Source: Crossaster papposus (taxonomy: Eukaryota > Echinodermata > Asteroidea > Velatida > Solasteridae). From it: a stretch of DNA of 64,000 bases. The notes under the pieces were generated by a model. The model had not been told where the DNA came from. It did not search any database and saw only the letters and a list, made by a program, of their open reading frames with translations. The position numbers and the translations under genes were made by a program. The DNA is taken from contig JBAIAA010000107.1 of the NCBI GenBank assembly GCA_037893245.1, positions 186,001 through 250,000 on the forward strand, given 5' to 3'. Below are positions 4,612 through 58,621 of this stretch, piece by piece (position 1 is the first letter of the stretch; every line of letters begins with the position of its first letter).

Positions 4612-5615
4612 TCGACACGTACTTCGAAGTCTTGCAGCTAAACGGCCAGCCTGACACCGAGGAGCAGGGATCCTCCCCAACCCCAAACCATTTGCCCCAT
4701 CCCTCAAAAACTAAAATGTCCTTAGCATTTGACGAGCAGCTGAATCAATACCGGAAAAAGCACAAGAAGCTGACCACTGCAAAGGACAAACCGGCACCTA
4801 AAGTAAAACAATCACCAACGGAACACCACTGTGCAGATGTGCTTCTAATCGGTGACTCGATGATAAAACGGCTTCAGCCCAGGAGATTGAGCAGGCAAAA
4901 GAAAGTGATGTGCCACACCATGCGTGGAGCAAAAATCCAAGATCTTGCTCCCCACGTCATACAGCTGTCGACCAAGCACGACGTATCTCGGGTAATTCTC
5001 CATGTTGGGACCAACAACACATCCGACAACCCGGAGACTATTGCCGCTCAGATCACCTCCCTCGGCGAGTCACTACAACCAAGATCAGTGACAATATCTT
5101 CGATCATACACCGTAAAAACCAAACGGTGCCACAGTGCAAGAGAGTAGATGATTCCAATAATCTGCTCAAGTCCATAGCAAAGCGAAATAACTGGGGCTT
5201 CATTGACAACGGTAACATAAACTCAAACCACCTTGTGTCGGACGGTGTGCACCTCGACTCGGCAGGAGTGCGCCTACTTGCCACGAACATTATCCAACAC
5301 ATCAAAGGACCACCAAAGACCTTTGATAGTCGCATTCCACATCAGAAAACCCCTTTCGGTCAGAGTTTGTACTCTGATGTCCTGACGAAGCGGACTACAG
5401 CGACCCGTGATGTTCCGACGGGTTTTCTAATGGCCAACCAGTATTACCCGCATCCCCATCAGAAACGGCACCAAATCAACCTCAATCAACGACGGCAGCC
5501 AGTATCCCAGACCAGAGCACCCGCCCCGACACATTATCGAGGCCAGAAGTGGAACCAACATCTGAAAATGGTCAGGGAGCTGCTCAATTACCCACAAGGC
5601 AAGGTTCTAAAATAG
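4491..5615 (+). CDS. LINE ORF1, C-terminal part with SGNH (GDSL) esterase domain
   Basis: The esterase domain spans roughly residues 120-270 of this 374-codon frame. The catalytic blocks of the SGNH fold are visible: LIGDSMIKRL (block I, nucleophilic Ser), HVGTNN (block III, Asn) and SDGVHLDSAG (block V, Asp-x-x-His). Esterase domains of this kind are known in ORF1 of CR1-like LINEs and may act on membranes or acyl groups; the substrate is not known. The first methionine at 4491 is probably not the native start, because the frame continues the reading of the upstream ORF1 segment after an indel. The 3-prime end overlaps the start of ORF2 by 67 bases in another frame, a compact arrangement typical of LINEs. 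All catalytic residues are intact. Confidence 0.8.
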   Translation: MDVGPAVLVPTSNRFAALATEDPVITDSSTGDSRTEAELVIDTYFEVLQLNGQPDTEEQGSSPTPNHLPHPSKTKMSLAFDEQLNQYRKKHKKLTTAKDKPAPKVKQSPTEHHCADVLLIGDSMIKRLQPRRLSRQKKVMCHTMRGAKIQDLAPHVIQLSTKHDVSRVILHVGTNNTSDNPETIAAQITSLGESLQPRSVTISSIIHRKNQTVPQCKRVDDSNNLLKSIAKRNNWGFIDNGNINSNHLVSDGVHLDSAGVRLLATNIIQHIKGPPKTFDSRIPHQKTPFGQSLYSDVLTKRTTATRDVPTGFLMANQYYPHPHQKRHQINLNQRRQPVSQTRAPAPTHYRGQKWNQHLKMVRELLNYPQGKVLK

Positions 5616-8476
5616 ACATAACAGATGGTATTATCTGCAATCAAAGTTCCGAGGGTTTCTCATTCGCCCATCTTAATGTAAGAAGCCTCATAAACAAATT
5701 TGACCATTTTAAGATTGTAATGTCTAAAAATCCATTCGACATCATCTGTCTAAACGAAACTTTTTGCGACGCCTCAATCTCTGATGACGAAATAACTCTA
5801 CCAAATTATTCTATTGTCAGAAAAGACAGGAACCGACATGGTGGCGGTGTTGCAATTTACATTCGAGATACCCTAATGTTCTCTCGTCGTGAAGATCTCG
5901 AAATATATGATGTCGAGTGTATATGGGTTGAAATTAAGTGCAAACAAAGACAGCCTGTGCTTATCAGTTCTATTTATAGGCCTCCTTCAAGCTCTGTCGA
6001 ATTTATGGGAAAACTGAGTGATATCCTTAATAAGGCCTCGTGTGAATGTAAAGAAATTATTACAACTGGGGACTTTAATTGTGATGTTTCAGATGAATAC
6101 GATAGTATGCAATCAAATCCAATTATTTCTTGCTTTAGTTTGTTCCAAATGGCGCAACTCATACATGACCCAACACGTGTCACTGAATCTACTAAAACTA
6201 CCATCGATCTCATTTTTAGTTCCCACCCAGAGCTCATAAAGGACTGTGGTGTTTTACCAGTCCTAATCAGTGATCATTATCTTGTTTATGGGCTACACAG
6301 TTGGAAAACACCAAAAATGAAAGGTCGTTCAATAAATTTTCGATGTCTAAAAAATATAGACAGTGATGCATTTACGGACGATCTCCGTAATGCACCATGG
6401 CAAGATGTTTTTGGTTGTTATGATGTGGATAATGCATGGTCTATATGGTACTCCATATTTATGAGTATTATTAACCTCCATGCGCCAGTCAAAACCAAAC
6501 GCATTCGGGGTGCCTCAGTTCCGTGGCTCGATAGCGAAATTCTTAAACTTATGCGGCAGCGCGATCGTGTACACAAAATTGCAAAGCACACAGGCTTACA
6601 AATTCATTGGGATTCATACAAAAACCTGCGGAACAATGTTACTAATAAAATCCGCAGTAAAAAGAGTAATTACTACACATCCGCCATAGAAGAAAATAAA
6701 AGCAACTCTTCTATGCTGTGGAAAACTCTGAAGGAGGTACTCCCTAAGAAACAAAAAACTGTACCAAATTCGATTACTTCCCCAAATGGGGAAAATATTG
6801 ACAATATCGCCGACATTGCTGATACATTAAATGAACACTTTTCAACAATCGGCAAGCGTACTGCTGGAAATTACCCTTTGCGTGAACTTGAAATAGATGA
6901 CAATACTGACGCCTCTATATTTGATTCTGTTGATGAAGATTGCGTAGTACCTAACATTACAGAAGAGTTTGTTCGAAAGCAAATATCATCTATGTCGGTT
7001 GGGAAAGCAACAGGTCCGGATGGAATTAGTGTTAAAATGATTAAAATTGCTTCACCTTATATCATTAAATCTTTAACTCATATTGTTAACCTGTCTATAA
7101 GATGTGAGCGATACCCTAAAGATTGGAAACATGCTTTAGTAACACCAATTCACAAGGGAGGAGATAAATGTAGTACAGGTAACTATCGTCCAATTTCTAT
7201 ACTGCCAATTATCTCTAAGATTTTAGAAAGATGGGTGCACTCATCGGTATATAGATATCTTGATGAAAACAATCTGATTCCTAGTTGCCAGTCGGGATTT
7301 AGACCCCTGCACTCAACTGAAAGCACCCTACATGACTTAACAAACAAGTGTTTTGCGGCCATGGAGAATGGACAAGTTACAGGCAGTGTGTTTATAGACC
7401 TCAGTAAAGCATTTGATTGTGTTGATCATGAAATCTTACTAAAGAAACTAGAAAGGATGAACGTGTCATCTTCTGTAACAAATTGGTTTAAGTCGTACCT
7501 AAGTGAACGTAGTCAGTCTGTGAATATTGGCGGCACCATATCAAATTAGGTCCTGTCCGTAAACACTGGTGTTCCACAGGGGTCGATACTAGGTCCACTT
7601 TTATTCATTGTTTATACTAGTGACCTTCCATTTTGTATTGCCCCAAACTGCAACTTATTTATGTATGCAGATGACTCAACATTAACGTGTAGCTCCTCCA
7701 ACATTAATATAATAGAAAGTAGCTTAAATACAGCTCTTACTAGTTTTCACAACTGGTGCGGAAAAAACAAGCTAGCTTTAAATGCCACCAAAACCAAATG
7801 CATGCTTATTGGTACTAGGCAGAAAATATCTAATGTTAATTTAAATGTATGCATTGCTGGTAGTCGTATTGAAAATGTGAAGTCATATAAATGTTTGGGT
7901 GTAATTATTGATGAAGCATTAAGTTGGGGCCCACATGTCGAATACGTAAGAAAAAATGTGGTGTCTAAATTAGGTATAAGAAGAATCCGTGATTGTATTC
8001 CTCAGCACAGCTTGCACACACTATTTGTAAGTCTAATTATGCCAACATTAGAGTATTGTTGTACTGTGTGGGGAGGAAGGTACATATCTCACGATAATAT
8101 TTTAAACAAATGTCTCAAAAGAGCCGCGCGGATAATCCTTAAATGTACCTTCCTCACCCCTTCAGAGGATATGTTTGCTCGTCTTAATTGGACCCCTTTT
8201 TCAAAAAGAGTCAAGTCAAAAAAGGCTATTCTTGTCTTCAAAAGTATCAACAAAATGACTCCTTTGTACATGACAAATATTTTCAAACCACTTACAGTAA
8301 TTCGCGAAACAAGGCAATCAACCCACACGGCACTGAAAGTTCCTTTCGCCAAAAAAGAATGCTACGCCACAAGTTTCGCTGTGAGTGGTGCAAATATTTG
8401 GAATAATCTGCCCGAACAATTGCGAACATTGGACTCATTAAGCACATTTAAATCAGAACTCCGACATGCCATCTGA
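5549..8476 (+). pseudogene. LINE ORF2: endonuclease and reverse transcriptase, one in-frame TAG
   Basis: The frame runs 666 codons to a TAG at 7547-7549 and then continues in the same frame to 8476, so the only visible damage is one nonsense codon. The N-terminal half is an exonuclease-endonuclease-phosphatase domain: HLNVRSLINK, ICLNETF, GGGVAIYIRD, SSIYRPP, TTGDFNCD and ISDHYLVYG are its successive motifs. The reverse transcriptase follows: GKATGPDGIS, NYRPISILP, SGFRPLHSTES, FIDLSKAFDCVDH, then after the stop GVPQGSILGP and the catalytic YADDST (7664-7681), then the thumb and a LINE C-terminal region. The proteins would nick target DNA and prime reverse transcription there. The stop lies between the palm A motif and the GVPQGS block, so the truncated product would lack the catalytic YADD. 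Confidence 0.9.
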
Positions 8477-16409: not shown

Positions 16410-19400
16410 TTAAAGTTCCCGTCTAGGAGGTGGGAGGTGGCCGCCGGATGACACCGTCCCTGTCCAAACGCATCCAGGTCCCGTCCGGTAGCTCCACCCG
16501 ACACCCGGCCGGCAAGAATCAGGGCTGCCCACGCCATTGGAGCTCCGTCTGCGTCCCTCCTTCTGCCCGAGCTGGCGGGGAGAGTCTGGCGGTGCTGCTT
16601 CCTTCTGGGTGGCGAGAGCGGTGTCAGTGTCCCCGTTGTCCTGACCAACGGCCCGGGGGCGCCGAGGTAGCCTCTCCTGGTCCTGGCTTGGCTGGCTGGC
16701 CGACTCGTCCTGTTTCGTGCGAGGAGGCCGGGAGGGCCGCTCCGAGTGGAGGTGGTTCCCCGGCTCTCCCGCTGGAACTGGGCCCCGTCGTCTCTTGGCC
16801 GGGGGCGGTGACGCGGGACTGGCAGCGGCTGGGTGATCCCGCCTGCCGTGGGAAAGGTCGGGGCTCTCCTGTCGGGAGAGGCGAGGCGGAGAAGGTCCTC
16901 GGCCGGCGGGATTGATGAGCTCTATCTCGTCGTCGCTGGGATGAATCTCTAGGGCGTCCATCTCCGCCATCACCCCGGCCACCAGCCCCTCCCGGCAGTA
17001 CCGATGGTGACGTCCCCGGATATCGTCTCGGTAGAACCGCACTCCGCAGCCCCGTTCGCACGCGTACGGGCGTTCCGCGTGGAGCTTCTCGCACGCAGTA
17101 AGGATGTGTCTGCGGCGGTTGCTGCTGCGGGTGAAAGCCTTCCCACAGTGGGGGCACATCACGGGAGCCCTCCTGCGGAGGGAAGGAAGTTTGGTTAACG
17201 CAATACAATATCGGCTAGGCCGGACTACCTTCCGGCCGGCACGAGTATACCTCCCGGCGTCTGGTTCCGTCGGTGGAGAAGGTGGCCGATCGCACCCCGC
17301 CTCGTGCTCGCCTAGCCCCGGACCCGGTTTTGCACCCGTCTCAACCTGCCCTTCAGGGGCGGCATCCGCCTTCGCAATTGGTGGCGACGCCTCCGCCTCT
17401 GTCAATGCCGGTGGTAGTTCCTCCTCGTCCGTCTGGTCACCCATGTCCCCTTGCGGGGCTGGCCTGGCTTGACCCGTCGGTCCAGGAACAGGCGGTCTCA
17501 GCACTCCTTCGGCCCCAGGCTGGGGCGGCGGGGGGCTGGCTCTTCCCCTCCGGCGGGGGCAGTCTCTCCTGAAGTGGCCAAACTCGTGGCACCTGTAGCA
17601 CTCCACCTGAGCCGGCGCGTTAGGTTTGTACTCCACCTGGGGAACCGACTCAGGCTCTGCAGCAGAAACTGGAGGAAGCTTCCCTACCGACATCACGTCT
17701 CTGGCTCCGGTCTTCCTTTTCCGGCTATACATGTACTCCTGTGACTTCATGAACGCCTCCATCTCGGTTGCGAGCGTGATTGCTTCGGTCAGGGTTGCCG
17801 CCTTCCGGGAGAACAGGTGACGCTGCAGCTGTTCCTCCCCCAAGGCCCTCCGGAACGCCTCTACGCCCAAGTCCTCCCGGGCGTGCGCAGGGAACCTTGG
17901 GTAGCTTTTTAGCACCAGCCGCCGAATAGAATGTCCCAGGCTGCTGAGCGACTCGTCGCGGCCCCTCGTCCGCATGGACAACTGGGCCCGATGTAATGGG
18001 ACCTGTGCCGTCACGCCGAACTGGTGATCAAAGTTCTCCAAGATAGAGGAGAATTCCCCCCGTGCCTCTGGCGCCATATCTGCCAGTGCTTCCAGAGCTG
18101 TGCTCTTCAGGTGAGCCGCCAGATACATCGCCTTCTCGGACTCACTCCAATGGTTGACCGCCGCGACGCTCTCAAAATGGATCAAGTAGTCCGACCAAGA
18201 CGAGACCCCATCAAACCTATCCGGGAGCATCAACGGTCTTCGGCCTCCCGTTTCCATTGGTTCCTGTGTGCGGAGCAGCTCCGCTCCATTGACTCCCATG
18301 CGGAGCAGTGCCGACGGCTCCGCTCCATTGGCTTGTGTGCGGAGCAGCTCTGCTCCGTTGACTCCCATGCGGAGCAGTGCCGACGGCTCCGCTCCATTGG
18401 TTTGTGTGCGGAGCAGCTCCGCTCCATTGACTTGTGTGCGGAGCAGCGTTGACGGCCCCGCTCCATTGGCTTGTGCGCGTAGCAGCTCTGCTCCATTGAC
18501 TTGTGTGCGGAGCAGCGTTGACGGCTCCGCTCCATTGGCCTGTGCGCGGAGCAGCTCCGCTCCATTGACTCCCATGCGGAGCAGTGCCGACGGCTCCGCT
18601 TCATTGGTTTGTGTGCGGAGCAGCTCTGCTCCATTGACCCCCATGCGGAGCAGTGCCGACGGCTCCGCTCCATTGGTTTGCGTGAGGAGCAATCCTGGTT
18701 GCTCCGCTCCGTAGGGAGGTGTGAGGAGCGAACTCGGTTGCTCCGCACCGTTGAGTCGTGCGCGGAGCAGCCCCGTCGGCTCCGCTCCATTGGGATGCGC
18801 GCGGAGCAGTTCCAACAGCTCCGCCCCGTCCGGTCGTGTGAGGAGCAGCTGCAGCAACTCCGCCCCGCTGAGTCGTGTGCGGAGCAACTCCATCGGTTCC
18901 GCTCCATGCGCTTGCGCGCGGGGCAATTCCGACGACTCCGCTCCATTCCCCTGTGCGCGGAGCAGCTCCGTCCCGTTGGTCCCCACGAGCAGTAGCTCCG
19001 GCTGTTCTGACCCGTTGCCTCGTGTGCGTAGCAGCCTCGTCCCGTTGCTCCCTGTGAGGAGCAGCTCCACTGGTTCCGCTCCCCGCCCCCTCGTGAGTAG
19101 CAGTCTCGAGTGTTCCCTTCCACTGCTTCCGGCGGATCTGGCCCGCGGGCGTTCCGATTGGAACGACCCCCCGGCCGCCCCGCCCCCTTCGCTCCTGTGC
19201 GGGCCCCCCCTGGACCGGAAACACTCTGGGGTGGCCTGGCAGGCCCCGAAACTGCCCCAACAGGGCCCCGCCCCCGCCGCACCGCCGGCAACAACCTGGG
19301 GTCGCTCCGTATGACGCAACCCATCGGTCGCGCCGCCATCTACGGCACGGGCCGGGCCCCCCCGGTACTCGGTACTCTTATTTTCAGACCCTTGGGAACA

Positions 19401-19850
19401 GTTTTCACGTGGCCCCGCCCCCGCCGCATCGGCGGACGCGGCCCGGGAACGTCCCGTGGGGAACACACCGTCTGCCGCGCCGCCCTCCGCTGCGCGGGCC
19501 GGGCCCTTCCCAAACTCGACTGGGACTCCGGACCGGTCATGGGTGAGGGCGCCCTCACTCCAAATCGGAGTGGACGCCTTGCCACCTCCCGGCCCTTTGT
19601 CCATGTCTCCAAAATCCCCGCTCTCATCCCCCAATTCCTCTCCCACAAAACAACCCGACTCCCAGGACCCCATGGCCCCCCCAGAATTTTCCGGTACATC
19701 CCTAAAGAAAGCCTCCAGGTCCCCCGGCGTGATCCCTTGTCCGCCGGACCCCTCCGTAGTCTGAGCCCCGCTTCCCGGGCCCATCCCTTGGCCGGCCTCC
19801 TCGCCGCATGGCGAGTCGGCCCCCAGGCCACTCGTTTTCCTCAAAAACAT
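16410..19850 (-). CDS. Gag-like polyprotein with tandem repeats, CCHC knuckle and two C2H2 fingers
   Basis: About 1,146 codons, taking the ATG at 19850 as start. The N-terminal fifth is Gly/acid-rich and disordered. Residues about 240-530 are 30 or more degenerate repeats of the form LLRTQxNGAEPSA. A retroviral-type gag capsid region follows (PDRFDGVSSWSDYLIHFESV, then a helical part to MEAFMKSQ). A zinc knuckle CYRCHEFGHFRRDC lies near residue 750, a pol-end-like motif TRAGRKVVRPSRY near 870, then CPHCGKAFTRSSNRRRH and a second finger-like CERGC...HHRYC near 900-960. It would package element RNA. The TRAGR motif normally closes a gypsy-type pol, so pol was probably deleted between gag and this tail. 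The reading is intact. Confidence 0.85.
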   Translation of the reverse strand: MFLRKTSGLGADSPCGEEAGQGMGPGSGAQTTEGSGGQGITPGDLEAFFRDVPENSGGAMGSWESGCFVGEELGDESGDFGDMDKGPGGGKASTPIWSEGALTHDRSGVPVEFGKGPARAAEGGAADGVFPTGRSRAASADAAGAGPRENCSQGSENKSTEYRGGPARAVDGGATDGLRHTERPQVVAGGAAGAGPCWGSFGACQATPECFRSRGGPHRSEGGGAAGGSFQSERPRARSAGSSGREHSRLLLTRGRGAEPVELLLTGSNGTRLLRTRGNGSEQPELLLVGTNGTELLRAQGNGAESSELPRAQAHGAEPMELLRTRLSGAELLQLLLTRPDGAELLELLRAHPNGAEPTGLLRARLNGAEQPSSLLTPPYGAEQPGLLLTQTNGAEPSALLRMGVNGAELLRTQTNEAEPSALLRMGVNGAELLRAQANGAEPSTLLRTQVNGAELLRAQANGAGPSTLLRTQVNGAELLRTQTNGAEPSALLRMGVNGAELLRTQANGAEPSALLRMGVNGAELLRTQEPMETGGRRPLMLPDRFDGVSSWSDYLIHFESVAAVNHWSESEKAMYLAAHLKSTALEALADMAPEARGEFSSILENFDHQFGVTAQVPLHRAQLSMRTRGRDESLSSLGHSIRRLVLKSYPRFPAHAREDLGVEAFRRALGEEQLQRHLFSRKAATLTEAITLATEMEAFMKSQEYMYSRKRKTGARDVMSVGKLPPVSAAEPESVPQVEYKPNAPAQVECYRCHEFGHFRRDCPRRRGRASPPPPQPGAEGVLRPPVPGPTGQARPAPQGDMGDQTDEEELPPALTEAEASPPIAKADAAPEGQVETGAKPGPGLGEHEAGCDRPPSPPTEPDAGRYTRAGRKVVRPSRYCIALTKLPSLRRRAPVMCPHCGKAFTRSSNRRRHILTACEKLHAERPYACERGCGVRFYRDDIRGRHHRYCREGLVAGVMAEMDALEIHPSDDEIELINPAGRGPSPPRLSRQESPDLSHGRRDHPAAASPASPPPAKRRRGPVPAGEPGNHLHSERPSRPPRTKQDESASQPSQDQERLPRRPRAVGQDNGDTDTALATQKEAAPPDSPRQLGQKEGRRRSSNGVGSPDSCRPGVGWSYRTGPGCVWTGTVSSGGHLPPPRREL
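18268..19100 (-). repeat. Degenerate tandem repeat inside the gag-like gene
   Basis: Units of about 30 bp and higher-order units of about 75-80 bp, containing GGAGCAGCTCCGCTCCATTG on the plus strand. They remain in frame, encoding the LLRTQxNGAE repeats. Confidence 0.8.
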
Positions 19851-19901
19851 GCCAAACTTCACCTGTTTTCCTTCGTCAGTCTATGCCACCGCTGCCACCA
19901 A

Positions 19902-25408: not shown

Positions 25409-25749
25409 CCAGTTTGAGTTCGAAAATTTAAAATGGCTGGATGACTAATAAACACGTCATGAGCAAGGCTGTCAGTGACCAACTCGCAGTGAGCAAGGCC
25501 AGAATTATCAGGGTGTGTTACCCACAGATGCTGGCATGAACCTGTCTCGGTGCGAGGTTTGTGAAAAACAATCCCGCGCCTTGTCCCAGTCGATTCAGGC
25601 CGATAGTGCCAGGAAGAACACCCACGCATTTCCGGCCTTGCTCGCTGCTGAAGGAAATTTTCTGAACTTGAACTTGGCGTGTTTATGCGTCATCCGTTTT
25701 GAATTTTGGGAAAACTTTGCGTTTATATACGTCATCCGGCGCGAACTAG
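25409..25749. mobile_element. piggyBac-like MITE with TTAA target duplication
   Basis: It starts CCAGTTTGAG after TTAA (25405-25408) and ends GCGCGAACTAG before TTAA (25750-25753). The interior shares CACGCATTTCCGGCCTTGC and the CGTCATCCGGCGCGAACT right end with the copy at 56950-57194. TTAA duplication is the signature of piggyBac (and Kolobok) transposons. Confidence 0.7.
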
Positions 25750-25753
25750 TTAA

Positions 25754-41663: not shown

Positions 41664-41879
41664 GATGTCTTAACCCACGCTCCACTTAATTTGTAGTTAC
41701 TTATAAAATGCAATTTTGTCAATTGCCCTGTCTATGTATGTATGTGTTTGTATGTATGCACTGGTGTGAGACAAACCACTTTGGATGTATTCTGGTCTAT
41801 ACTCAACTAGTTGTGAAGGATCTTCTAAACATCGGTGAGTTAATATTTATTATTACTTAACATATTACTTACAGTTAGT

Positions 41880-43715
41880 ATGAACTCTAATATCGACCCA
41901 GACTTAAATTTTCATATTCCTGACAATAACTGTAATTACTATGATCAGGATGAATGTTTGGATAATTTTAAAAGTTACATTGGTACGAAGCTGCTGCACT
42001 TAAATGCTCGTAGTCTACCTAGAAATATATCAAGCATTATTCAATACCTGAATCTTTTACAAAATAGTTTTACAGTTATTGGAATATCGGAAACCTGGTT
42101 AACGGATATACAAGACCCTTTGATACAAATACCAAACTATGTTATTGAAGGTACTTGTAGACAAAACAAAAGAGGTGGTGGTGTTGCACTTTATATAAAA
42201 CAGGATTTAGTTTATATAAACCGTACTGACCTATGTTTTGATAACCCTGATATTGAATCATGCTTTATTGAACTTGTTAATACCGGTAAGGCAAATATTA
42301 TCATTGGTATTGTTTATAAGCCACCCTGCATATCATGTACTGACTTTATTGAATGTACTGATACAGTTCTGTCACATATAGACAGCGAGAACAAAAAGTG
42401 TTACATTTTGGGCGATTTTAATATAAACTTACTGGAGTATGATACTGATAATAGCGTACAAACATTCATGAATACCCTTTTATCTCATTCATTTTTTCCC
42501 ACCATAGACAAACCAACCAGGATTACTGATGATAGTGCAACACTTATTGATAATATTTTTACCAATGTTTATCAAGACCAACCTGCTGGTATTTTGTCCA
42601 CTGATATTAGTGACCATCTTCCCATATTTGTAATTATTGAAAACCTTACTGAAAAAGTCCGACCGGATAGTAAATGTAAAAAGCGTGACTTTAACCACAG
42701 TAATGTTGATAATTTTATTCATGACTTGAATGATACTGAGTGGGATTGTATAACTTCTATAAACGATATCCACAGTATGTATGACACGTTTTTATTACAT
42801 ATCAAACAACTTTATAATAAAAACTTTCCTCTGCACGAGGTAAAATGTCGCTATGATAAACTCAAATCCCCATGGTTAACTAATGGTATTTATAACTCGA
42901 TAAGGCGTAAGAATCACTTGTACAAAAAGTATTTGAAAAACCCTACTCCGCGAAATAAATCTACTTATACTAGCTTTAAAAATAAACTTAACTCTCTGAT
43001 TAAATTATCCAAAAAGAATTATCTATATAAAAAATTCAATGAAGTAAAAAATAATATAAAAGGTACGTGGAATGTAATTAATTCTCTTTTAAATAAGCGT
43101 AAACAAAATAGTAGCTCCTATTTTAACCATGATGGCATCAACATTACGAACGACACCGAAATTGCTGATTCATTTAACAACTATTTTGTTAATATTGGCA
43201 GCAGTCTTTCTAGTGGACTACCATTATGTAACACCTCTTTTCATTCATTTTTAAATACTCGATGTTCGGATTCATTCTTCTTGTCACCTATTACCCAAGA
43301 GGAGATTGTGGACAATATTAACAAAATTCCTTCTGGCAAGGCTCCTGGTTTCGACGGTTTGAGTTCTTTTGTAATAAAACAGGCACGGTATTCGTTAGCA
43401 AAACCTTTAGCTATTATCTTTAATAAATGTCTAACAGCAGGAGTATTTCCCGATGGCTTAAAAATAGCCCAAGTTATACCAATCTACAAAAAAGGTTGTA
43501 AACATGATATTACTAATTATAGACCAATTTCAGTTCTGTCGACATTCTCCAAGTTATTTGAAAGGCTCATATACATTAGGTTAATATCTTTTATTAATAA
43601 GAATGATATTCTTTCGGAGGCACAATTTGGCTTCAGACAAAACCGGTCAACTGATTTATCAACATCATATGTTCTCAGTAAAATATGTAATGCGATCGAT
43701 CATAATGGCTCTTAG
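41880..43715 (+). pseudogene. LINE ORF2, endonuclease and first half of the reverse transcriptase
   Basis: 611 codons from the ATG. Endonuclease motifs: LLHLNARSLPRN, IGISETWLTD, GGGVALYIKQD, IVYKPPC, LGDFNINLLEY and DISDHLPIF. The reverse transcriptase opens with GKAPGFDGLSSFVIKQA, IPIYKKGCKHDITNYRPISV and SEAQFGFRQNRSTDLSTSY. The frame ends a few residues after ICNAIDHNGS in a TAG created at a deletion junction near 43711. The palm A motif with the first catalytic Asp, the GVPQGS block and the YADD motif are all absent. The endonuclease looks complete. Confidence 0.85.
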
Positions 43716-51599: not shown

Positions 51600-52620
51600 G
51601 TTACGAAATATGACTGAAATACTGGACTTCCTCCGTATCGAGAGCCACACAGCGATCACGTGTAAAAAACATTCTGTTGCTATATGGACATAGATATGAT
51701 GACAGGGTACAAAAACAGCGGTTTGGGCTTTTGTTTTCATGCAGTTACTGACTTGGGGATTCTGTATCTTCAGACCGTCTAGCTAATCCTGTACCAATAA
51801 CTAGCAAGATGGATCGTTGTGCACAAGATCGCAAATTGCCACCAATTGCAGCTTTGGTTTCCAAAAAACATGACGCATGCTCGATGTGTACGGGCAAAGC
51901 TGCCCTTGGTGTAGCCTTTAAACAAGGCCACATGTCTGATAGACGCCGAGCGACTAAAAAGAGACTAATCGCGAAAACCTGAGTGACGTCAGTGCGAATT
52001 GCCCAGACAAGTGGCCTTTATCAATCTGGTTTGGATTTCTTATGTTAACCTTTGTTTCCAACTTGAATCGCTACCTATATGGTAGCGTCCAATCAGCGAA
52101 CGTATCTCCGCGTGACGTCAGCTTATATTTGAGTTGGATTAGTTCATTTTACAAACAGGGAATGTCCAATCATGTCACTTACAATATTTAGCTCAAATCA
52201 TTAGTTGCTTCCTAATTTATTGCAATTTTGCATGTAAAATAGATTTAAATGTGATATCTTGTATTTATCATTCATATATTCAACTCAGAAGCAACATTTA
52301 TTTACGTTTTTTTACCTTTTCTTACATGCTTTGATATTGAACGAATCACGAACGAAACCAACTGGGAGATCGCCGTTCTGATTGGGCGTATTGACATGCT
52401 AATATGTATCTATGAATAATTCATGCCGAGCAGTGAAACCTACATTGCAAAAGGCCTCGTGACATTCGTCACTCGGTCGCGCGTTCACCCCGGGTATCTA
52501 GACTCATCTCAGCCGCTTAGCCAGAGTCACGAGGCCTTGTCAAAAGGCTACCCTTGGTGGCGCTATGCCTTCATTGTCAATAGCAACCGAATGTTTTCTG
52601 GACCTTCCGCCATTTTTACA
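51600..52620. other. No gene seen
   Basis: AT-rich DNA with no supportable feature; CGTGACGTCAG near 52112 is a CRE-like word but stands alone. Confidence 0.4.
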
Positions 52621-53411
52621 TATGTGACCTGTTCCCACGAAACCCGGACGAAGTCGCACCGATCCATTTTGCGTAAACAGCGTGCAAAGTCATTTCGTGG
52701 TGGAATCGTCAAATTTTTTTAGAGGATGATCATATACTATACATATTCGTCTATCATTTTAATCTAAAAATTAGTAAAATCAGTTAACGTAAAATACTTA
52801 TTTTCCCCATTATCGGAGCGATGTCGGTGAACAAAAGAAGCGTGGACTTATACAAAAGTTCGCAAATCACCGCAAAGTTACCGAAAATAAGTAGCTTTCA
52901 TACAAAGCGGAACACTCCCCCCTTTGACAAATTTGGTATCACCGTAAAGCTGGCGTCTTGCAGAATTTATTTTCATTGATAAAATTGGGAAATGACGTCA
53001 TAATAAGCCAGTAGGAGCGCACTTTACTGAGCTAAAACTTGTAAACAACCACTTTCTTGTTGCTTAGGTCGTCTATAACGAGAAGCATGATTCGTCAATT
53101 TGCATCACATGATCTACTCTATCGGTGAGTTCCCTAACGTTCATGTACATTATCAGTACAGTTTTGTTGCGCTAGCATTGAGAACCAGACCATCTCGTTT
53201 GTACGAGAATTCGCCAACGTGTAACGCGCCGCACTGCATGCCGAGAGCGGTAAGCTAATGTAGCTACTACTACTAGAGAGATATTTCCGTGTTTAGAAGT
53301 GGGTGTTTGACATAGATTTTACGCCTATTGAAGTGAGTTATTATCCAGTATAGTTACCAAACATATTTGTGATATTTCACAACGGAAAGGTCACGAAAGC
53401 AGCCCGATTCC

Positions 53412-53796
53412 ATGGCGGACAAGGCTGCAACCTCGTCGGGGAAATCTGACTCGTCGACGCTGAAGACAGCGTTAAATGAAGCACTCGTTCTTGGCTTGTC
53501 GGGGAGGGACAGCGCAAATTTGTCTGATCTTCGATCTGAACGAATATTTCGTGGACAGTATTTCTTCAGATGATGATGATGATGTGAATGATGACATGTA
53601 CTCAGATTTGTCTGAGCCATCACATTCATCGTGAACTATGCAGAGAGGGAGGGCATGGTCATTCCAGGTCGCATACCAGGGGTCAAGTGTTCTGACCCCC
53701 GAGTGAGACTCCTTCCGTCGCGGGACAATAAATCAATAATATGGCGGCAGTACAAATCGCAGCTCGAGTCAACGAACGAAGACCGTCTTGTAGCAG
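53412..53796 (+). pseudogene. 5-prime exon of the DUF7869-like gene, frames disturbed
   Basis: An ATG at 53412 opens MADKAATSSGKSDSSTLKTA and reads to a stop at 53571. An acidic stretch typical of such N-termini, DLNEYFVDSISSDDDDDVND, is in another frame (53533-53634), and NYAEREGMVIPGRIPGVKCS with VRLLPSRDNKSIIWRQYKSQ in the first frame again. Two indels, or alternative reading of a degraded exon, are needed to join them. The last part is well formed, and its GTAGCAG/GTAGAA donor is in phase with the acceptor at 54099, reading LVA-G-DPEYRVARR across the junction. The gene would be transcribed rightwards inside the TGTGACC element. Confidence 0.55.
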
Positions 53797-54098
53797 GTAG
53801 AATGTTGTTTATTTCTGTTTGGGGTTTATAGACCTCTTGCATACACGAGTAAACAATGTTGTTGTTGTTATTTGCATTGATATTCGTTTTATTTAATTTT
53901 TTTAACCCTACAGTCCTCAATCCTCCGAAATCAATATGATTTTGCACACACCCTAGGGAGTTAGGGTTAATTAAAAAAAAAATTGAGAAACATACCCTGT
54001 ACATGTAATTGATGTTATTCACGCCGCGATTTTAAAGGTCTGATGTTAATAATTCATTAAATTGTTTAATGAAAAAAAAAATTGCTTTATTTTCACAG

Positions 54099-54937
54099 GA
54101 GATCCAGAATACAGGGTTGCGAGGCGATCAACCTTCACAAAGATGTGGAGAAGATACACACCCTTCATCTTAACAACAAAACCAATGAGTGACTTGTGTT
54201 GGCAATGTCAACAAAATAACAACGGGGTGTACCGCAGCGCCAATTTGCCAGAGGACCAGAAACTCCAACGCCTTCAATGCCAAGAGGAGCATCTGCGTCT
54301 GGTCTACATGGAGAGGGAGTTGTACCGCAACATGGTAGAGGAGGCTAAGAGAGCAGTCAACGAAGGGGAGAAGCTCGGCCGCAATGATGCCTGCAGCAGA
54401 CCTGGTCAAATGCATTATGCATTTGACTTTGCCCAGCAAGTCCACTATCCAAGTGACCCCCTTCAGCCTGGGCCCATGTACTTTCTGTGTCCTAGAAAGT
54501 GTGGGATCTTTGGAGTGTGCTGTGAAGCAATCCCTCAACAGGCCAACTACCTAATAGACGAAGGTGTTTCGGTTGGCAAGGGGTCAAATGCCGTCATCAG
54601 CTATTTGCACGACTTCTTTGAGAACTTTGGTCTCGGGGAAGAACAGGTACACTTACACTGTGACAACTGTGGAGGGCAAAATAAAAACAAATACGTAATG
54701 TGGTATTTTGCCTGGAGAGCAATGACAAGGTTACATAAGTCCATCACCGTGAACTTTATGATTGCCGGACACACCAAATTTGCCCCTGATTGGTGTTTTG
54801 GCTTAGTAAAGCAGAGGTACCGCAGAACCATGGTCAGCTGCTTGGCTGACTTAGAAGAAGTGGTACGGTCAAGCTCGGTGAAGGGGGTAAATGTGCCACG
54901 AGTTGTTGGCACAGAGAAGGGCCATGGCATCGTCTAA
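54099..54937 (+). pseudogene. Main exon of the DUF7869-like gene (transposase candidate)
   Basis: After a TTTTCACAG acceptor the exon encodes DPEYRVARRSTFTKMWRRYT, a Cys motif DLCWQCQQNN, a charged helix, and then the core: MHYAFDFAQQVHYP (first acidic residue), GIFGVCCEA, NYLIDEGVSVGKGSNAVISY, LHCDNCGGQNKNKYVMWYFA (second acidic residue) and AGHTKFAPDWCFGLVKQRYR (possible third). This pattern is that of DUF7869-type proteins, widespread as hypothetical proteins in invertebrates and resembling the RNase-H-like DDE fold; the catalytic assignment is my inference. TAA at 54935-54937 is in frame, and TYNWQEFLSPYF continues behind it, so the codon (probably once CAA) truncates the protein just after the core. 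Confidence 0.7.
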
Positions 54938-55227
54938 ACGTACAACTGGCAGGAGTTCCTGTCCCCATATTTTCATCATGTTACTTTATTTCCACACAAC
55001 AATATTATATTATATTATGAAATATTTAAACCACTGCAGAATAAGTGTGGGTGGGGGCCCCCACTAACAAATAAGAGCTAATTACATATACATGTAGGAC
55101 AAATAACAAACAAAAACACGATATACAATTATTGTAGTAGCATATTAGAGAGAAACAAAAAATACTTATAACCTGTACTTATAACCTGTTGCCTGTAACC
55201 CCGTGAAATAGAGACATATTTTTATCA

Positions 55228-55840
55228 TCAGTTTGAATATTTATTTAATAATTTAATTTTGTACTTGCGTTTAAAAGTACGCAGGCTGGATATAGCTTTG
55301 AGAGAGGGGTCAATAGAACCCCACAGCTTGGGACCTTCATGTTTCACTGTAGCTTTAGCAAGCTTAGTACGAGCATAAGAACGATGAAATTCCTTGCATT
55401 GTCTTGTGGAGTAAGAATGAACTTGTTGATTTTTTGTGAATAGCGAGCAAATGGATTTTGGTAATTTAGTGTTACTAAGTTGGTGCATAAAGGAGCCAAG
55501 CTGGAGACCGTAAATATCAAAGACTTTCAATGTATTACAATTATAAAAAAGGAGATTACTATGGTCATTGAAATTAACATTGTTAATTATACGTAAAGCC
55601 TTCTTCTGTAATTTAAGTATTCTATTAATTTGACCTATACCACTGTTTCCCCATGCTAGAATGCCATATGAAATGTAAGGCAAGACAAGGGTATTATAAA
55701 GAACCATTAAAATATCACGGGGAAAAAATTGTTTTAATTTACAAAGAATACCTACATTTCTTGAAATAACTGTACATATGTAATTGACATGCCATTTCCA
55801 TGTGAGACTGTCGTCGATCATTATGCCCCACCACATGAGG
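55228..55840 (-). pseudogene. 3-prime fragment of a LINE inserted in an intron of the DUF7869-like gene
   Basis: Minus-strand reading of 202 codons. WGIMIDDSLTWKWHVNYICT, LKQFFPRDILMVLYNTLVLP, YISYGILAWGNS and LKLQKKALRIINN correspond to the thumb and C-terminal part of a LINE ORF2, closely like the segment at 43739-44455. The endonuclease and catalytic core are missing, as expected of a 5-prime-truncated insertion. Its ORF end is intact. It stands between the main exon and the 3-prime exon of the host transposon gene, in opposite orientation, so it postdates that gene. Confidence 0.8.
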
Positions 55841-56011
55841 TAAGATTTATTGTTTACTTATTATTGTAGTCTTGTGATATACCATCACATGTATAAAAAC
55901 TTGTTTGTTTCAATATTTTGAAGGATAAGATAATTATTATGAAGGTCAATCTCCAAAAATGACAACCCAATTTTTGATCCTATGATTTTTCCCTCATTTT
56001 ATTCACTTCAG

Positions 56012-56369
56012 GTTTAGTCATGATCACCCTGGAAAGGTGTTCTCCAAGCTGCATGCAGAGAGTGTTGAACAAGAGTTCCAACTTCTCTTGGATGCATCTA
56101 ACCTGCCACCGAGGGTCTTGCCTGAGCCTCTGCTAATCCAAGGTTTGTCCTTTGCCCGCATGGAGTATTTGCACAAGCACATCCGAGAGTTTTGCAGTGC
56201 CTCGACGCGGGACATCACTTGCCCACTTCCCAAGTCGCCTGAACCAGCAGAGACCGATTCGGAAGATTCTGAGGATGCAGATTCGTCTGGAGATTCATCT
56301 TCAACTGTAGACTCTACAGATGACGATGAACCACTCATCAAACTGGCTCGTCGTGCTCGTCTTCCCTAA
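56012..56369 (+). CDS. 3-prime exon of the DUF7869-like gene with acidic tail
   Basis: A TATTCACTTCAG acceptor opens FSHDHPGKVFSKLHAESVEQ, then LLLDASNLPPRVLPEPLLIQ, GLSFARMEYLHKHIREFC, and a tail of Ser, Asp and Glu (TDSEDSEDADSSGDSSSTVD) before KLARRARLP and the stop at 56369. The FxHDxPG...LP..L...GLS..R..YL..HI..FC pattern is the usual C-terminus of DUF7869-type proteins, which supports one gene across 53.4-56.4 kb. The acidic tail ending in a basic patch could be a nuclear-localisation arrangement. This exon is intact. The donor that should join it is expected near 54975 (SPYFHH) but is not clear. Confidence 0.65.
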
Positions 56370-56599
56370 ATACATGACCATGAACTTAAAACTTATAGGG
56401 ATCACGCAATGTCTTCGGCTGTCAGCTCGCTAACGAGAAAGAAAAACAACAGTTTTTAATTTATACATAATGACAAATTATGCATGTATGTGTTGTCTGA
56501 ATCTGCTACACACGTGTGAATTTAAGTTTTCCCACAAGAAATCAACACCCAACCCCTTTATTCATGACACTCTTTAATGTACACAAACATGTACCCCAA

Positions 56600-56772
56600 C
56601 AAGTGTTGAAAAATCAACATTAAAAGCGTGCGGTCAGTGACTACACTTTAAAATGTTGGATTACATGCATAATACAGCTCAACACGCGAGTGTTAAATTT
56701 ATCAGTTTGAATATCCAAATTTTAAAGAGTAGTCACTGACCACACACTTTTAATGTTGATTCAACACTTCAG
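56600..56772. repeat. Palindromic MITE with TGTTGA words
   Basis: GTGTTGAAAAATCAACATTA at 56602 pairs with the complement ending at 56772; the pairing continues through GGTCAGTGACTAC. Arms of about 45 bp enclose some 75 bp. TGTTG and CAACA words dominate the ends. Confidence 0.75.
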
Positions 56773-56804
56773 TTTCAAGCATGTAAGTATGTACAGTACA
56801 TGTA

Positions 56805-57370
56805 ACATGTAACATGTACATGTACATTTTACATACATGTACTGTACATACTTACATGCTTGAAACTTGGGGGGGGGGGGGGGGGGGTGGGGGTTAACCA
56901 CTGCGTATGCATACATGGACATACTATATTTTTTTGGATGTTCTATTAACCAGTTCGCGCAGGGATTATTTTAACATCGCCGAGCCCATCGGCGGGATTA
57001 TTTTTAACGAAACTCAATCCGAAGCGTGTTCAGGCTGATAGTGCCGGGAAGCACGTCCACCCACCCACGCATTTCCGGCCTTGCCCGCTGCTGACATACA
57101 TTTCCGAACTTGAACTTGCTGGAGTGTTTATGCGTCATCCGTTTTGAATCTGGGGAAATGTTTGCGTTTATACACGTCATCCGGCGCGAACTGGTTAATA
57201 GTAACATGTAACATGTACATTTGTTTACATGTACATGTACATGTACATTTTACATACATGTACTGTACATACTTACATGCTTGAAACTTGGGGGGGATCG
57301 GGGGTGGGGGTTAACCACTACGTATGCATACATGGACATACTATATTTTTGTTGATGTTCTATTAATAGT
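56805..57370. repeat. Tandem duplication of about 125 bp, one copy interrupted by a MITE
   Basis: Copy 1 (about 56820-56949) and copy 2 (about 57239-57366) share TACATACTTACATGCTTGAA, a poly(G) tract, AACCACTRCGTATGCATACA and GTTCTATTAATAGTAA. Copy 1 carries the MITE 56950-57194 inside its TTAA; copy 2 is empty. Confidence 0.85.
56950..57194. mobile_element. piggyBac-like MITE in TTAA, empty site next door
   Basis: It starts CCAGTTCGCGC and ends GCGCGAACTGG, with TTAA on each side (56946-56949 and 57195-57198). The duplicated flank at 57358-57370 reads TTCTATTAATAGTAA without insertion, which fixes the TTAA duplication. Confidence 0.9.
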
Positions 57371-58621
57371 AATCCGGTGTCCATTATGATTTTTGTCTGT
57401 ACAAGCAGAGCTGGTAGCTGCATTATTATGAATGTCATGTGACCCTTATTAAAGTGTGTGATACATAGTACCAGAAGCATATTAAATTGCAGAAAGAAAA
57501 CAGTATAGATGTATGTATACTCTAGATAGCCGACATTTTAAAATAATCAAAATACATGTATTTGGAAAATATTCTAAAACGTTTTGCGAAAGTTCACGCT
57601 GTACCATTGCCAAAGATACATGTACACGTATACCGATACATACCGTACTTATTGACAGTTTAGTTAACAATTTTAATAGAATTAAAGGTGACGCATCTAA
57701 AGTACTGGTATTAGTTTTTACATTTTCAGTAACGTTTAATTGGCCTAATAATTTCTAATGCCAGTCACATTGAAACTTTGTTTATGTTTTGGTTCATCTA
57801 TTTTTGTTCAATACAAAAAAATGCATTAACCGGTAAAGTAATCAAAATATCAGATCACTATAATTCGACATAAGGTCGTACACAAATAAGCACAATACAA
57901 AACAATGTACACGTGTATTGTATTCAATAACAGAAAATGTGTTTGTAAAGTACATGTACATGTATACGTACATACATGTACCTGTGTTTTTTTGGTCGAT
58001 GTGCCGATATATTTTTATTTCACTTAAAACACTACAGAAATAAACTGTCATAACTTTTGCATTATTGAATAAAATTTGTTCAAACTTTCAAAAAATATTT
58101 GTCGAGAGATGTTCTTGATGTGTGCCAATTGTCAGATTAATCCAATAATGGGAACATAGTGGTTGCTATGGGGTTTTGGATTGACCTTGTAGAGTGCGCT
58201 GACGCGTGTACATTACATTCACCAAGTTTGTGGAGTTTTTTCCTGTGAACACAGCTCTCGTTTTCTCGTAATAATTTGTTATGGGTGGGTGAAAGCTGGG
58301 GTCTAAATTCCTTCTCATGGGATCATATGGAGGGAAAAACTATACAAATTATATATCATTAGAAAGCTGAATAGCTGGAGAATTTGAAAATAGCCTAAAC
58401 TCAATTTTTATTTTTGCTACTTTGTCCGGGTTTCGTGGGAACAGGTCACATATGGCCGCTGTGTGGCTCTCAATACGGAGCATGTCCATCATTTGAGCCA
58501 TAATAATATGGCTAAGCTGAACGCACAACATCACATCGGCTTGGATGGCTTCATCGAGATTCCAAACTGGAATGCAAGAGTTATGACAGTGTTTCATCCA
58601 ACGAGGAGTACAACCACATAC

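Follow-up and report, generated by a model that had tools for sequence, protein, structure and literature searches.

Target duplications of only 2 bp are known in Tc1/mariner and in some elements of the PHIS group (PIF/Harbinger-ISL2EU-Spy), TA being among the pairs duplicated in the latter, as described in parts of PMC8533490 and PMC12730594. The rule by which Repbase recognises a superfamily is, in an excerpt of PMC4455052, an absence of PSI-BLAST convergence. Here we describe an element, 5,828 bp from end to end, at positions 52623-58450 of a 64,000-nucleotide stretch (the window) of the Crossaster papposus genome (1.02 Gb; GCA_037893245.1, contig JBAIAA010000107.1, positions 186,001 to 250,000, forward strand). 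This unit is very probably a terminal-inverted-repeat DNA transposon, with the DUF7869 protein that it encodes as its transposase. Three marks of the DDD/E class of inverted-repeat DNA transposons were found: enclosure by inverted repeats, a target duplication of fixed length (2 bp), and an RNase H fold with three acidic residues, the fold being a predicted one. Moreover, we consider it probable that DUF7869 represents a previously unnamed, uncatalogued superfamily marked by a D-D-D transposase, by ends of the form TG...AAAA and by 2-bp duplications of A/T letters only, occurring as rare bacterial insertion sequences and as several families (more than 6,000 ends and many miniature inverted-repeat transposable elements, MITEs) in at least one animal.

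The inverted arms of the element (52619-52658 and 58415-58454) are 40 nt long with the flanking CATA and TATG counted in, are 95% complementary and lie 5.8 kb apart. A first-pass annotation, made from the letters of the window, had reported inverted repeats at this spacing with TA next to both ends, and both statements hold, the repeats proper being 52623-52658 and 58415-58450. The end sequence TGTGACCTGTTCCCACG has two exact occurrences in the window, inverted to each other; chance predicts 0.15 matches (up to 3 mismatches), and at least 2 matches arose in 1 of 100 shuffles. The parts of the element are as follows; the splice borders 53796/54099, and likewise the acceptor of the C-terminal exon at 56012, were read by eye.

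52621..52622, no strand: target duplication, left copy (TA), from MITE flanks and the empty site with a single TA
52623..52658, plus strand: left terminal inverted repeat, TGTGACCTGTTCCCACGAAACCCGGAC..., from the inverted-repeat search and genome-wide count
53640..53796 (start approximate), plus strand: upstream exon (NYAEREGMVIPGR...DRLVAG), an open frame with donor GT at 53797, splice sites by eye
54099..54934, plus strand: main exon with CxxC and the DUF7869/RNase H domain, including D109, D188 and D230, from Pfam, the predicted model and the alignment
54974..55828, minus strand: insertion missing from group-2 copies (defined below), overlapping a reverse-transcriptase-like frame at 55228-55857 (minus strand)
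56012..56369, plus strand: C-terminal exon (FSHDHPGKVFSKLH...LARRARLP), matching residues 581-667 of the protein of bacterial locus L014 at E 2e-11
58415..58450, minus strand: right terminal inverted repeat, from the inverted-repeat search and genome-wide count
58451..58452, no strand: target duplication, right copy (TA), from MITE flanks and the empty site

Because the insertion site CATATG is palindromic, the window copy alone is also compatible with a duplication of 4 or 6 bp. The 22-letter end has 3,301 + 3,213 = 6,514 matches in the host genome (up to 2 mismatches; none for the reversed control). When the first 30 exact matches were each cut out as a locus, 15 came from MITEs of about 424 bp, 10 from window-like units and 4 from a second group; the remaining one (L039) had no partner within 1.5 kb. 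Four MITEs compared with the full element have in common with it the ends and 105-132 bp beside one end (74-77%). Identical 2-bp flanks were present in 18 of 19 distinct MITEs (four repeat fetches were dropped as duplicates), L062 being the exception, and these duplications were TA in 12 cases, AT in 3 and TT in 3, such that 6 of the 18 are not TA. All 13 full-length or long copies (the window copy and L067-L078, the latter selected for an end spacing of 5.8-9.3 kb) have TA on both sides. They represent only two insertion contexts: the window copy and L067-L072 form group 1, and L073-L078 form group 2. The expectation that such ends would enclose a DUF7869 gene elsewhere is borne out in 12 of the 12 fetched pairs besides the window's, all 13 lying in these two contexts.

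Undivided sites with a single TA were found for both contexts: for group 1, 10 exact sites and 119+85 with no more than 3 mismatches, many of the near-matches differing at the TA itself, and for group 2, 38 exact sites and 219+235 near-matches (both controls 0). Filled and exact empty sites differ by the element plus exactly 2 bp. Duplications of 4 bp (ATAT) and 6 bp (CATATG) were therefore rejected; among the 18 matched MITEs, moreover, only L040 matches at 4 bp as well. The host repeats provide the cleanest evidence for the duplication because undivided single-TA sites survive in them. The 2-bp length given in the first-pass annotation thus stands (18/19 MITEs, two empty sites), whilst its sequence is corrected to any two A/T letters (TA, AT, TT or AA). 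Among the matches listed, the two host repeats that hold full copies lie in tandem arrays with periods of about 3.1 kb and 2.4 kb (G000:C489:3387523-3492470 and 3690276-3715316; G000:C880:39461-44348), and the C489 units have a single mismatch, either at the TA or next to it.

Between the ends lies a spliced plus-strand gene, as had been described: its main exon scores PF25273 DUF7869 at E 9.8e-14 (51.8 bits against a Pfam cut-off of 26), and the motifs FDFAQQ, LHCDNCGGQNKN and GHTKFAPDWCFGL are all present in its product. The upstream exon is the counterpart of the region preceding the catalytic domain in the bacterial relatives, a comparison made partly via the same exon in L073. The window copy is broken and cannot yield a complete protein. 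Relative to group-2 copies, about 950 bp with N-terminal coding sequence is absent near 53618; an in-frame TAA stands at 54935-54937; and an insertion of about 855 bp (about 54974-55828) brings in the reverse-transcriptase-like frame, which from its motifs we take to be of non-LTR type. This inserted piece gave nothing over a Pfam cut-off. A short inverted-repeat element (CTATTAACCAGTTCGCGC... ends) is also nested in the transposon at 56943-57201, with a relative (84%) at 25594-25753 of the window.

Three Asp residues are invariant in the alignment, D109, D188 and D230 (counted from 54101), with 78 and 41 residues between them, and are probably the catalytic triad. The predicted model has an RNase H-like core resembling integrases and Mos1, in agreement with the fold that had been anticipated; a single-sequence structure prediction was unusable (pLDDT 37.5). 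DUF7869 proteins also have a long N-terminal part, in which Cys residues are conserved, and carry the signature DNC/GHTKFxPD. The proposal that this protein is the transposase of the element is supported by the enclosure, the 2-bp duplication and the predicted fold with its invariant triad. Likewise, the enclosed genes, together with MITEs bearing the same ends, bear out the view that an orphan protein family and orphan MITE ends belong together.

The protein search of the host genome gave at least 142 matches. Of these, 46 rows are 98-100% identical; two further loci, present in pieces (C201, C339), come next and then divergent loci, five of which (L087-L091) were examined as 10-kb stretches. 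In L089 (54% identical) 37-bp TGTGACGCGGTATGTCAAAACC... inverted repeats enclose the gene in an element of 5,106 bp with a TT duplication, and in L090 (58% identical) TGTGACCCGCTCTGCAAAAAGGGGC inverted repeats enclose it in 5,209 bp with an AA duplication. Each of these families has its own TGTGAC repeats. A PF25273 search counted 177 matches in the host, and none in 14 control genomes. The host genome also gave 50 matches to the Wnt family, which is not known outside animals, in keeping with an animal host. Among the matches listed, many are from other subfamilies, and the best scores (C890, C18:248899, C192, C119 and others) belong to such subfamilies, which are themselves repeated.

The family extends to bacteria. 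In about 85,000 genomes of bacteria and archaea, a search for the pattern DNCxGQNKN returned 12 loci, 11 of which encode DUF7869 proteins (L006 does not). Seven of these 11 genes consist of one uninterrupted frame coding for 635-668 aa, and the remainder are cut or broken. Identity to the window exon is 39-43%, or 32% for L008, and all five bacterial proteins scanned exceed the curated cut-off of PF25273. Inverted repeats of 39-64 nt enclose 8 of the 11 loci, so that enclosure of DUF7869 genes holds outside the host too; L013 has a right end only, and L011 and L004 showed no inverted repeats enclosing the gene. The enclosed elements measure 2.05-2.72 kb in 7 of 8 cases, mostly taken up by the DUF7869 gene. 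The eighth, L005 from a Nitrospirales bin, is 3.5 kb long and has a second transposase-like gene, presumably ISL3-like, between the DUF7869 gene and the right end (L005:263-1582). Flanking dinucleotides of the eight full elements consist of A and T only in 15 of 16 cases. Just outside the right ends of L012 and L014, TTGTAAT is common to flanks that otherwise differ, which is possibly a target preference or an extended end.

Bacterial MITEs were sought with three end queries over nine of the genomes G001-G010 (G006 left out). Thiomargarita yielded one of 486 bp with AA/AA flanks, and a Desulfobacterales genome yielded two, both 125 bp long, with flanks TA/TA and AA/AA, such that perfect 2-bp A/T duplications were present in all three that were read; the same queries found none in the remaining searched genomes. 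Not counted were L095 (end at a contig edge), L100 and L102 (internal matches) and ends of known or fragmentary gene copies. An uninterrupted second copy of the transposase gene adjoining L007, sought in G001 as a bacterial empty site, was not found. Only 2 of 395 genomes from the phylum of G001 matched: one was G001, and the match in the other was a weak fragment (E 1.6e-4); bacterial copies therefore look rare in that phylum. Plasmids and phages gave no match for the L007 protein, and the first scan of the genome-contig collection none for the exact 22-letter end. In viral contigs the DNC motif had no matches, a search for related loci found none, and the GHTKF motif occurred in 8 stretches whose translations revealed no relative on inspection. 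A 17-letter end in two viral contigs was taken as chance.

A common layout emerges from 12 ends, eight from bacterial elements, three from animal families that carry the gene, and one from an animal MITE next to the gene of L091. These were aligned gapless from the tip, with the tip TG anchored by eye and the distance to AAAA not chosen. All 12 ends have the tip TG and, at positions 17-20, A fills 45 of 48 cells; none of 20,000 shuffles and none of 20,000 rotations was equally good. Thus homologous, mostly one-gene bacterial elements (2.05-3.5 kb, several phyla) with the same layout, A/T target and MITEs point to a single superfamily common to bacteria and animals. The finding that bacteria share the enzyme family, the arrangement of the ends and the 2-bp A/T rule, and have MITEs of their own, goes beyond the first-pass annotation. 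The tree supports the animal/bacterial split at 72/57 and does not settle the direction of transfer.

Elsewhere in the window, two non-LTR retrotransposon frames on the plus strand (5414-7546 and 41847-43712) have endonuclease and reverse-transcriptase matches, the reverse-transcriptase match of the latter being under the Pfam cut-off. A GC-rich (64%) stretch on the minus strand (16413-19880) holds an open frame of 1,156 aa and has zinc-finger/zinc-knuckle matches under Pfam cut-offs.

We propose that an RNase H-fold enzyme with the Asp-Asp-Asp triad (D109, D188, D230) would act as transposase, recognising and cutting ends laid out as TG...AAAA, with the AAAA block at positions 17-20 a likely site of binding. 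The ends would then be joined to target DNA cut with a 2-bp stagger at two A/T base pairs, giving rise to the 2-bp duplication. The same DUF7869 enzyme family would also move the short MITEs that share these ends, and transposition would be cut-and-paste rather than copy-out.

Some results weigh against a separate superfamily moved by DUF7869 enzymes. The idea that divergent DUF7869 genes of the host would also be enclosed by such ends held for two of the five loci (L089 and L090, with their 2-bp duplications) but not for the other three, where no pair of ends was demonstrated: L087 (77%) has a matching end on the right side only, and L088 and L091 showed no enclosing pair within 10 kb. Moreover, only 3 of the 8 full bacterial elements have identical flanking dinucleotides, a mismatch that a great age of the insertions, recombination between copies, or flanks carried in a circular intermediate, could possibly explain. 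Comparison with named families, lastly, was by Pfam and NCBIfam profiles and published descriptions, without Repbase or ISfinder transposases.

This last point bears on the alternative that survives best, namely that DUF7869 branches deeply within a named superfamily, such as Tc1/mariner or PIF-Harbinger/ISL2EU, or that Repbase or ISfinder already lists it under another name. Some DDxD mariners are similar in having the third Asp after 41 residues, and the predicted model resembles Mos1. In addition, 2-bp duplications occur in Tc1/mariner and some PHIS elements, as far as the descriptions in PMC8533490 and PMC12730594 extend. However, Pfam gave only DUF7869 over cut-off for the window and bacterial proteins and no transposase family at E <=10 (most matches weaker than about 0.1 are removed by its filters), NCBIfam gave nothing over a cut-off, and the best match of the profile to PDB sequences was unrelated (E 1.3). 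The duplication, moreover, is not limited to TA, and the C/DxxH signature discussed below is missing from 16 of 17 rows. Within the open-licence PMC literature no paper mentions DUF7869, and neither TGTGACC terminal inverted repeats of a transposon nor GHTKF with a transposase were found. We therefore regard membership of a named or catalogued superfamily as possible but rather doubtful.

The other alternatives fare far worse. Large inverted-repeat elements can carry passengers, and L005 does hold a second transposase-like gene, yet it is very improbable that DUF7869 is a passenger moved by an unrelated transposase: its gene takes up most of 7 of the 8 bacterial elements that are enclosed, the ends vary from one DUF7869 family to another yet match in structure, and the protein itself combines a triad with a predicted fold, both of transposase type. 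Enclosure might instead be a by-product of large repeats or segmental duplication, without the gene having moved with the ends. The four other group-1 copies with longer flank available have 1.2-1.5 kb of flank in common with the window at 99-100% identity, and group-2 copies have a second flank in common. These near-identical group-1 flanks indicate that the copies multiplied together with a host repeat, and the near-identical full copies that were read spread in this way rather than by transposition. As an account of the enclosure itself this is hardly credible, given the undivided single-TA sites in two contexts and the two other host families and bacterial elements in other, unrelated flanks. 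Finally, metagenome bins are the source of most bacterial loci, and L004 (sponge-symbiont bin) falls weakly with animal sequences in the tree (83/92) and may be sponge DNA, but contamination by animal DNA is a most unlikely source of the bacterial loci as a whole, since L007 is from the named strain Desulfocicer vacuolatum DSM 3385 and adjoins an rve-type transposase frame, a GAF-protein frame extends into the left end of L014 (its continuation beyond the right side was sought and could not be shown), L010 has an AlbA_2 frame at its left end, 7 of the 11 genes are single full-size open frames, and two of the bacterial genomes have MITEs with these ends.

If the superfamily reading is correct, a domain of unknown function would gain a function, and the unnamed DUF7869 proteins of invertebrates would be transposases, or proteins domesticated from them, moved between domains at least once. 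Moreover, orphan ends that number in the thousands in one animal genome would have their likely enzyme named, and a further transposon superfamily would have crossed from bacteria to animals. Since bacterial versions exist whose open frames run to about 2 kb, including one in a strain from a culture collection, both enzyme and ends are open to direct testing in laboratory strains.

Compared with known systems, DUF7869 elements resemble Tc1/mariner in predicted fold, through the likeness of the model to Mos1. They differ from the IS630-Tc1-mariner group in having no Pfam transposase-domain match at E <=10, in their DNC/GHTKFxPD signature, their long N-terminal part with conserved Cys and the 635-668 aa of the full bacterial proteins; Tc1/mariner also duplicates TA only, whereas any A/T pair is duplicated here (AT and TT in MITEs, TT in L089, AA in L090). 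PHIS elements are alike in the 2-bp duplication of some members and may be set apart by the absence of a Pfam transposase family at E <=10, a distinction drawn by Pfam and not against Repbase sequences. For Academ, Novosib, Sola, Ginger, Merlin, Transib and Zator the comparison was likewise by Pfam, and no named bacterial IS family appeared in NCBIfam or Pfam. Sailor (DD82E) is likewise a superfamily common to bacteria and animals, but in the part of PMC8533490 that describes it the duplication is mostly TATA, the ends usually start with GT or CC and the spacing is DD78-111E, as opposed to 2 bp, TG ends and 41 residues between the last two Asp. The hAT, P, MuDR, Kolobok and Dada superfamilies are also eukaryotic DDD/E transposases; their C/DxxH signature between the second D and the last acid, as given in a section of PMC9587614, is missing in 16 of 17 rows of the DUF7869 alignment, and the TTAA duplication of Kolobok stands against 2 bp here. 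According to the relevant part of PMC12730594, Zisupton/KDZ duplicates 8 bp (Kyakuja 7 bp), and IS3EU duplicates 6 bp and has TAYGG rather than TG...AAAA ends. Kolobok, Zisupton/KDZ, IS3EU and Sailor, as these cited parts define them, were thus ruled out by duplication length. Both the window exon and all five scanned bacterial proteins fall within Pfam PF25273 DUF7869 itself, an entry without a function, which is here linked to the ends of an element.

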